A stretch of 64,000 nt of DNA from Sporichthya polymorpha DSM 43042. Lineage in GTDB: Bacteria; Actinomycetota; Actinomycetes; Sporichthyales; Sporichthyaceae. Of the stretch, positions 32,649-34,592 are shown piece after piece (position 1 is the stretch's first letter; every line of letters starts with the position of its first letter). Where the stretch lies: positions 2,266,907-2,330,906 of the forward strand of contig NZ_KB913029.1 of the NCBI RefSeq assembly GCF_000384115.1, given 5' to 3'. The notes below the pieces were generated by a model. That model ran no database searches and had not been told where the DNA came from. It saw only the letters and a program-made list of their open reading frames with translations. Position numbers and translations under genes: made by a program.

Positions 32649-32996
32649 TCAGAGTTCGAGGTGGAGCCGGAGCGCGTCGTCCACAGCGCGGAGCAGATCG
32701 GGTCCCAGCCGTGCTATCGCTGGGCCGACTCGCTCCACGGCCACCGCGCGCACCTGCTCTGCCTGCGCCTTGCTGTCGAGTCGAAGACCGGTCTCCGCCT
32801 TCGGTAGCAGGACCTGGAACGAATACAGCGTCTCGACGTTGCTCGTCACGGGCACGACGGTGACCACGCCGCGCCCGAGGCGCGCGGCCGTGGCGTTCGC
32901 GCGGTCGTTGCTCACGACTACTGCGGGCCGGACCTTGCTGGCCTCGCTGCCGCGTGTGGGAGTGAGGTCGACGAGGCGGATCTCACCGCGACGCAT
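32649..32996 (-). CDS. MazF/PemK-type endoribonuclease toxin
   Basis: 115 residues. MazF family: MRRGEIRLVDLTPTRGSE at the N-terminus (the basic strand and loop), KVRPAVVVSNDRAN, VVPVTSNV, and SKAQAEQVRAVAVER in the second half. Such toxins cleave mRNA at short motifs when the antitoxin is degraded. Start ATG 32996 overlaps the antitoxin stop by 14 bp. Sequence specificity is unknown. Confidence 0.92.
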   Translation of the reverse strand: MRRGEIRLVDLTPTRGSEASKVRPAVVVSNDRANATAARLGRGVVTVVPVTSNVETLYSFQVLLPKAETGLRLDSKAQAEQVRAVAVERVGPAIARLGPDLLRAVDDALRLHLEL

Positions 32997-33213
32997 CGGG
33001 CAGCCCGTCGCCGACAGCGGCCTGCCACACCTCGGCGTCGGAGCCGTCCTCCCACTCGGCCCAAGCAGCCTCGTACTCGTCGCCGAGCGACTCGTGCCGG
33101 AGCAGGTGGACGGCATGGGCCAGCGCAGCCGAACGAGACCCGAGCCCGGATGTACGGGCGTAGTTGTCGAGCAGTTCGACGTCCTCGTCCGGCAGGCTGA
33201 CGCTGATCTTCAT
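32983..33213 (-). CDS. Ribbon-helix-helix antitoxin of the MazEF-type pair
   Basis: 76 residues. N-terminal RHH DNA-binding domain (MKISVSLPDEDVELLDNYA, then GLGSRSAALAHAVHLLR) followed by an acidic toxin-binding tail (DEYEAAWAEWEDGSDAEVW), as in mycobacterial MazE-like antitoxins. ATG 33213 follows TAGGAT by 6 nt, a leaderless start. Expected to autorepress through the dyad at 33229-33239. Confidence 0.9.
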   Translation of the reverse strand: MKISVSLPDEDVELLDNYARTSGLGSRSAALAHAVHLLRHESLGDEYEAAWAEWEDGSDAEVWQAAVGDGLPDASR

Positions 33214-33311: not shown

Positions 33312-33520
33312 ACAGAAAAGAGCCCGCGGGCTGCCGGTCGAATGACCGGCTGCTCGGAGGGACGTAACCCCGAGCACCCACGGGCTCCGGTGACTGCAGT
33401 GGATTCGCCTGGCCGCAGACCTGCGGTCCGGTGAAGGCACCTAGTCAATGCGGCTAGCTTGCAGCCACCTCACGCGTCCGACAGCTACTCAAAGCGTGGA
33501 CCACCTCCCTTCCGTGTACT
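33312..33520 (-). ncRNA. Probable structured non-coding RNA upstream of the toxin-antitoxin operon
   Basis: No plausible gene lies in 33246-33771, yet the minus strand shows dense secondary structure. Its 3' end is a three-way junction: P1 33377-33387 with 33320-33330 (GAGCCCG/CGGGCTC plus GGG/CCC), P2 33344-33350 with 33333-33339 (GCCGGTC/GACCGGC), P3 33370-33376 with 33351-33357 (TGCTCGG/CCGAGCA), then CTTTTC, resembling a terminator. Upstream hairpins: CCGCAG/CTGCGG (33413-33426), GGTG/CACC (33430-33441), GGCT/AGCC (33452-33466). The 5' part carries a very strong Shine-Dalgarno-like GGGAGGTGG (about 33505-33513). The sequence feels familiar as a conserved actinobacterial intergenic element, but I cannot name it. 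It could be a small RNA or a leader. Confidence 0.5.
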
Positions 33521-33685
33521 GACGACGGTACGTCGCGGCCGGGAATCGTGTCGAGGGATTTCGGGCCGGGTCGCGAAGCTCTCAGGTTGGCTTTCAGGAA
33601 AGGGCGTCGGCGGCGACCCGGAGGTCGGCGGAGGGGACAGTCGGCTCGGGCTGGTCGGGTGTCGTGGTCGCGCTTCAACTCAACC

Positions 33686-33741
33686 GAGTGCGCAGATCGG
33701 CCCCGGTTGGGCCCGTCGAACCGGGGCTCAGCTGCGCACTC
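33686..33741. terminator. Two-stem inverted repeat downstream of udgX (family F)
   Basis: Left arms GAGTGCGCAG and CCCCGGTT pair exactly with AACCGGGG and CTGCGCACTC across a 10-nt loop and a symmetric 5-nt internal bulge. It ends 30 bp from the UdgX stop. The segment GTGCGCAGATCGGCCCC matches the direct repeats at 1531-1606. Confidence 0.65.
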
Positions 33742-33771
33742 GGCGCACTTCGGCCCGTCTACGTGGGCGCC

Positions 33772-34452
33772 CTATCCGAGGGCGTCGGCGGCGACGCGAA
33801 GGTCCGCGACGAGGGCGGCGAAGGCGGTCTCGCGGTCGTCGGAGCGGAGGACCGCGGAGGGGTGCACGGTCGCGAGCAGCTGCGCCGCGGGGGAGCCCTC
33901 GGGAACGTCCGCCGGCACCAGGCCGCGGGCGGCGCGGTCCGGCCACGGGAGGAGGACGCCGCGCTCCTTCGTCACCCGGAACGCGGGACCGGCCAGGGCC
34001 CGGCCGGCGATCGCCCCGAGGGCGACGATCAGCTCGGGCCGGACGCGCTCGAGCTCGGCCGCCAGCCACGGGCGGCAGGCGGTGATGTGGCCGGCGTCCG
34101 GGGACTGGTGCAGCCGGCGCTTGCCCCGCTCGGAAAACCGAAAATGCTTGACGGCGTTCGTCAGCCACACCGATTCCCGCGGCAGTCCGGCCTCCGCCAT
34201 TGCCGCATCGAGCAGCCGCCCGGCGGGGCCGACGAACGGTTCGCCCTCGACGTCCTCACGGTCGCCGGGCTGCTCGCCGACCATCAGGCAGCGGGCGCGG
34301 GGGTCGCCGGCACCGAAGACGACCTGGGTCGCGGGGGCGTACAGCTCGCAGCCCCGGCACTCCTCGGCCGCGGCGGCCAGGGCGCCCAGGTCCCCGTCGT
34401 CCGGGACCCAGGCCTCGGCGCCGGGACGGTCCGGCCGGGTCCGTGTCGCCAT
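33772..34452 (-). CDS. udgX: Uracil-DNA glycosylase superfamily protein UdgX
   Basis: 226 residues. Fe-S uracil-DNA glycosylase with the hallmarks of the UdgX group: motif A GEQPGD (59-64, instead of GEAPG), TNAVKHFRF, and the R-loop KRRLH (111-115) whose histidine (H115) in characterised UdgX forms a covalent bond with the uracil site; HPSAVLR (197-203) is motif B. Cys 32, 35 and 126 are cluster ligands; His 103 stands where UDG4 enzymes have the fourth Cys. The R-loop is KRRLH, not the more usual KRRIH. ATG 34452 chosen; the longer frame enters the repeats. Confidence 0.93.
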   Translation of the reverse strand: MATRTRPDRPGAEAWVPDDGDLGALAAAAEECRGCELYAPATQVVFGAGDPRARCLMVGEQPGDREDVEGEPFVGPAGRLLDAAMAEAGLPRESVWLTNAVKHFRFSERGKRRLHQSPDAGHITACRPWLAAELERVRPELIVALGAIAGRALAGPAFRVTKERGVLLPWPDRAARGLVPADVPEGSPAAQLLATVHPSAVLRSDDRETAFAALVADLRVAADALG

Positions 34453-34466
34453 GCCGATTCCCTGCC

Positions 34467-34592
34467 CGTCGACAAAGGGTGTCACCCCTTGTCGACGGGG
34501 TCGGGGTCGACGTGTCCGGAGAGGGTGTCACCCCTTGTCAACGTGTCCGGGGTCGACGTGTCCGGAGAGGGTGTCACCCCTTGTCAACGGGG
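34467..34592. repeat. Three tandem copies of a GGGTGTCACCCC palindrome
   Basis: AGGGTGTCACCCCTTGTC occurs three times (about 34477, 34522, 34568). The first is embedded in a near-perfect 34-bp dyad with CCCGTCGAC/GTCGACGGG ends. The other two share the lead CGTGTCCGGAGAGGGTG. The third spans the stop codon of the photolyase gene (34584-34586). Related to family B terminators. It occupies the whole gap between phr and udgX. Confidence 0.75.

Follow-up and report, generated by a model that had tools for sequence, protein, structure and literature searches.

The closest working analogue of the RNA described here is rreB, which together with rreR was reportedly presented by Hahn and colleagues in 2017 as a pair of alphaproteobacterial mini-mRNAs with a 17-nt extended Shine-Dalgarno (SD) sequence and a 14-18 codon open reading frame (ORF) opening with a weak start codon. 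To our knowledge, rreB has so far been described only in alphaproteobacteria. A small RNA that doubles as a mini-mRNA is also found in Sinorhizobium, where rnTrpL encodes a leader peptide of 14 aa (PMC7298713). It differs from the RNA considered here in arising from the attenuator upstream of trpE(G), in its leaderless start and in being tied to tryptophan, whereas the latter has no downstream operon and carries an extreme SD. In S. aureus, extended SD pairing is reported to go together with non-canonical starts and with small ORFs in leaders (PMC13009471), but these are start sites of ordinary genes and upstream ORFs and not one conserved stand-alone RNA. The Ms_IGR-5 family (RF02471), whose transcript has been reported in S. 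lividans, S. avermitilis and M. smegmatis, is classed in Rfam as "Gene; sRNA", noncoding and of unknown function, and has kept this orphan annotation in a large part of the class Actinomycetes, mycobacteria and Streptomyces among them.

The locus under study lies in a 64-kb window of the Sporichthya polymorpha genome (the whole stretch of DNA analysed), in a gap of about 560 bp that had been noted as free of genes and indeed extends from the end of a uracil-DNA-glycosylase (UDG)-type gene at 33772 to an antitoxin start at 33213. The original prediction had described a structured minus-strand RNA, not assignable to a known family, that might be an independent small RNA or else a leader or attenuator beside the MazEF-type operon; the structured RNA and its independence were supported, whereas the missing family and the leader role were not. 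Searching Rfam with cmscan, as had been suggested with the prediction, returned RF02471 over its full length, at 68.9 bits (gathering score 45; E 3.6e-13). A genome search with the family model found a single copy in S. polymorpha. Within the class, the same model matched 41 of 60 relatives, nearly always once each, and 5/5 members of the family Sporichthyaceae, in line with the description of RF02471 as actinobacterial and present in one copy per genome. The window RNA thus shares with the family a full-length match above the gathering score, the single copy and a transcript of its own. The term "noncoding", which belongs to the Rfam text and not to the covariance model, seems not to apply to it, judging from the sequence evidence given below (Table 1).

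Table 1. Features of the Ms_IGR-5 locus, in window positions.
Feature	Position	Strand	Basis or remark
Promoter-like sequence, TCGACA - 18 nt - TACCGT	33525..33554	-	7 nt 5' of RNA start ACACGG
Ms_IGR-5 RNA (RF02471)	33313..33517	-	cmscan, full length, model positions 1-184 of 184
Extended SD, 17 contiguous bases against the mature 16S 3' end, GGAUCACCUCCUUUCU	33497..33513	-	Watson-Crick plus G-U pairing
12-codon ORF, TTG AGT AGC TGT CGG ACG CGT GAG GTG GCT GCA AGC TAG (MSSCRTREVAAS*)	33454..33492	-	start, frame and stop kept in homologues
In-ORF SD-like GAGGUG	33466..33471	-	15 nt before stop; 6 nt 5' of the P-site codon with the stop in the A site
Closing helix, 5' strand (GGUGGCUGCA), within ORF	33460..33469	-	covariation permutation test
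Closing helix, 3' strand (UGCAGUCACC)	33389..33398	-	fold and covariation test
Long terminator hairpin, then CUCUUUUCUG	33313..33387	-	sequence and fold

Folding of the minus strand between 33312 and 33520 gave a minimum free energy of -106.5 kcal/mol (z -3.9); dinucleotide shuffles averaged -87.4 (sd 4.9), and none of 200 folded as well, which agrees with the earlier impression of more pairing than expected from random GC-rich DNA. An equally good fold is obtained for the plus strand (z -4.3), so folding alone cannot assign the strand; the minus-strand assignment relies on the Rfam match, the promoter-like sequence and the SD. The multi-stem 3' part ending in a U-run was recovered, as was the SD-like motif originally seen (GGGAGGTGG, 33501-33509, minus strand). 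That the RNA is an independent small minus-strand transcript is likewise supported by its family, by its own promoter-like sequence and terminator, from which the ends of the ~205-nt transcript were deduced, and by the reported expression of homologues in Mycobacterium and Streptomyces. A first set of 120 homologues was gathered, 41 with the Rfam model and 79 with a DNA pattern in named genomes, and a second set of 96 that had not been used before brought the total to 216. A TANNNT box precedes the RNA 5' end by 4-11 nt (mostly 6-7) in 117 of the first 120. Many actinobacterial copies also keep an unpaired GAAUCC(AA) segment after the mini-ORF, ahead of the 3' strand of the closing helix, and many have GUCC in the loop of the terminator.

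We consider it likely that the locus encodes a stand-alone, translated Ms_IGR-5 mini-mRNA of about 205 nt that engages the ribosome and resembles rreB, and in which translation itself would matter and not the peptide; Ms_IGR-5 would then probably not be noncoding. The likeness to rreB and rreR lies in the small stand-alone mRNA, the extended SD directed against the 16S 3' end, the short ORF and the weak start. At least about 16 nt of 16S complementarity ahead of a short ORF can be taken as the mark of an rreB-type RNA; with G-U pairs counted, the window RNA pairs over 17 bp. In 118 of 120 homologues the complement, carried by about the first 20 nt of the RNA, spans 15-23 uninterrupted bases and mostly extends to the last nucleotide of the mature 16S 3' end. 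This 3' end reads GGCTGGATCACCTCCTTTCT in the S. polymorpha genome as well as in seven genomes of the Zixibacteria and Sumerlaeota phyla. When SD strength was ranked against 41 genes of the 64-kb window, the SD:16S duplex of the RNA reached -33.3 kcal/mol, compared with -23.9 for the best gene and a median of -13.5. An exceptional complementarity that extends to the mature 16S terminus, together with weak start codons, could also befit a decoy that sequesters free small subunits through its 17-bp anti-SD duplex and so damps translation, the ORF serving only to clear the RNA. Such a decoy would need neither the fixed spacing between GAGGUG and the stop nor the covarying helix described below, and its copy number would have to count against thousands of ribosomes; we regard it as rather unlikely.

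In the mini-mRNA favoured here, the 16S-pairing segment is followed after 1-7 nt (2-6 nt when counted from GGUCC in the first 120 homologues) by the start codon of the ORF. All 120 have an in-frame start (TTG 65, ATG 38, GTG 11, CTG 6), situated at a multiple of three from GAGGUG although the SD-to-start spacing shifts by single bases, and a stop exactly 15 nt after GAG (TAG 106, TGA 7, TAA 7). After shuffling of the spacers (2000 rounds), an open NTG start was present in a mean of 13.6 loci and a maximum of 26, against 114 observed, the other six having CTG. The same architecture was found in 95 of the 96 further homologues (TTG 46, ATG 33, GTG 3, CTG 3, ATT 8, ATC 2), the exception (L263) offering ACG as the sole candidate start. 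GAGGUG lies 15 nt from the stop in 210 of the 216 homologues and 14 nt in five; many homologues were gathered with patterns or a model containing GAGGTG, which accounts for part of its invariance, while frame, start and stop identity lie outside the pattern. The variable N-terminal codons are AU-rich (GC 32%, compared with 71% for the loci), as expected for efficient initiation. With its TTG start, 12 codons, terminator and promoter-like sequence, the last two setting the presumed transcript limits, the window RNA has the weak-start short ORF and the small stand-alone transcript of an rreB-type RNA. AUU or AUC is the only in-frame start available in some homologues (L301, L302, L207, L209, L212, L264, L268, L315, L316, L318). 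Both codons are classically discriminated by IF3 when used as starts, and these copies suggest a link of Ms_IGR-5 to initiation fidelity.

The present Rfam reading sees in Ms_IGR-5 a classical trans-acting noncoding sRNA whose ORF is incidental and whose SD-like and CACC segments are mRNA-pairing seeds. It is backed by the Rfam class, by the independent transcript with its terminator, and by the upkeep of the GAAUCC-like segment and of the GUCC loop in many homologues. The ORF itself argues against it: as start, frame and stop are kept in 215 of 216 homologues, with the stop identity varying and the length (10-17 codons) changing only by whole codons, the ORF hardly looks incidental, which renders this reading improbable. 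Ribosome footprints have been found on MS_IGR-5 homologues of M. abscessus and M. smegmatis, listed by the authors as noncoding RNAs (PMC4974804), and lend independent support to ribosome contact; since footprints fall on classical ncRNAs too (PMC4974804), they are by themselves no proof of translation. A search of freely readable literature, which left aside the first paper on the M. smegmatis sRNAs, found no published account of a translated Ms_IGR-5.

If Ms_IGR-5 is translated, its product could in principle be a microprotein of 10-17 aa active in the cell, or an arrest peptide acting in the ribosome tunnel, and the conserved stop and the EV(A/T) that most lineages keep close to the C terminus would be consistent with this. 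Several lines of evidence speak against it and make it very improbable. The 120 loci encode 101 different peptides, and the GAG and GTG codons are invariant in 120/120, third positions included, which fits an SD-like RNA element rather than a requirement for Glu-Val. GAGGUG is even read in another frame in five homologues from different lineages, the stop still following 14 nt on, giving peptides that end in GGGSS, GGDCR, GGDCS or GGTRS. Codon 11 changes its amino acid (Ala, Val, Gly, Glu, Asp) along with its RNA partner (GCA/UGC, GCG/CGC, GUC/GAC, GGC/GCC, GAG/CUC), and in deep lineages EVA gives way to EVH, EVM, EVP, EVR or EVS by replacement of Ala10, the partner compensating in several of them (GGUGCACGG/CCGAUGCACC, GGUGAUGAGG/CUCUCAUCGCC). 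Selection thus appears to keep the act of translation and not the peptide.

The partner strand belongs to a closing helix in which the last ORF codons pair with NNCAGNCACC just ahead of the terminator. In an ungapped comparison of the first 120 homologues, the covariation score of matched strands was 1034.8, against 919.5 for permuted ones (sd 9.8, max 947.6). The signal was weaker (-1513 vs -1423, sd 21) when the strands of the 96 newer loci were permuted and scored by duplex energy, as many of these loci have a bulge. The Rfam consensus differs in having neither the ORF, which the entry does not mention, nor the CAGNCACC helix, and in pairing the SD with codons 10-11. This last helix has no supporting covariation in the 120 homologues, its SD side being almost invariant and its outer pairs failing in 10-22% of them. 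The RF02471 entry could therefore be revised, as it includes the unsupported SD:codon 10/11 helix and leaves the closing helix out.

As to the neighbouring genes, a UDG gene lies upstream of Ms_IGR-5 and, downstream on the same strand, a CopG-type antitoxin and a PemK/MazF toxin are followed by pdxH; the RNA 3' end is about 100 bp before the antitoxin start, the distance originally given for the operon. In two congeners (L032 and L033) a convergent pdxH comes directly after the RNA, without mazEF between them, and the pair found there in the window (32649-33213, minus strand) may represent a recent insertion or loss. An attenuator or operon leader should precede a conserved same-strand regulated gene, and in the 41 loci of the class no same-strand downstream gene is common to more than a few, the next gene being mostly convergent. 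The proposal that the RNA leads or attenuates the downstream operon (MazEF in the window), which would agree with the same-strand mazEF-type genes beginning about 100 bp away, is ruled out by this synteny as a family-wide role and, given also the strong terminator, appears extremely improbable. With congeners lacking mazEF and no recurrent downstream same-strand gene, Ms_IGR-5 is best viewed as a unit of its own.

For the translated mini-mRNA, the following course of events can be envisaged. The RNA would bind 30S subunits very tightly, and the over-stable SD, often combined with a weak start codon, would make initiation slow or regulated. The initiating ribosome would open the closing helix and, on arriving at the stop codon, might be held there through pairing of GAGGUG with the anti-SD, since at that point the motif would stand within the usual SD distance of the P-site codon. 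Ribosome loading and SD-anchored termination would in this way switch the RNA between two folds, so that ribosome occupancy could set its fold, stability or interactions, for example by hiding or freeing CAGNCACC. Like rreB, Ms_IGR-5 would serve to sense or buffer translation initiation by engaging ribosomes. Should this hold, the orphan RNA would be linked to rreB and become a direct test of long SD pairing, weak starts and SD-anchored termination in regulation.

Conservation is not confined to close relatives, homologues being found in several phyla. A model of the 5' part of Ms_IGR-5, built on sequence without structure, matched 115 of 297 genomes across Actinomycetota, 42 of 119 in the phylum holding a Zixibacteria MAG and 13 of 40 in the Sumerlaeota phylum. 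In the phylum to which a deltaproteobacterial MAG belongs it matched 2 of 158, and one of these loci (L229) has the full architecture. A DNA-pattern scan of the phylum of the deltaproteobacterial genome matched 20 of 247 genomes, only two of which look real by sequence. Of eight loci outside the class Actinomycetes submitted to cmscan, only the one from the Zixibacteria MAG (L086) passed the Rfam cut-off, with 55.9 bits, meaning that the present model would miss most such copies. The family extends beyond Actinomycetota to the phyla of the Zixibacteria and Sumerlaeota genomes and to a few deltaproteobacterial genomes, which places the architecture in distant phyla. Phage-borne copies were also considered, and the five pattern matches in viral contigs all lacked the flanking features and were attributed to chance. 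More tentatively, Ms_IGR-5 might belong, as a single branch, to an ancient class of ribosome-sensing mini-mRNAs spread over many phyla. Members of this class would combine an extreme SD complementary to 16S rRNA with a start codon that is canonical or near-cognate (NUG, AUU, AUC), a mini-ORF whose peptide is of no relevance and a second SD-like element anchoring the terminating ribosome. Through the folding of such an RNA, initiation and termination would signal how the small subunit fares (e.g. free 30S or IF3 stringency).

Some minor observations concern the genomes and the surroundings of the locus. One genome (G004) gave two RF02471 matches, of 101.7 and 67.5 bits (L010 and L035/L046), possibly owing to a contaminated assembly. 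Neither tRNA nor tmRNA was found in the 64-kb window, and the sole match to another Rfam family near Ms_IGR-5, a miRNA family, was rejected as a chance hit. It stems from a long, near-perfect inverted repeat at 33684-33743 (CCGAGTGCGCAGCTGAGCCCCGGTT ... AACCGGGGCCGATCTGCGCACTCGG), which lies just downstream of the UDG-type gene and is probably its terminator. In the upstream region of the same gene, GGGTGTCACCCCTTGTC units are repeated at 34475-34590.
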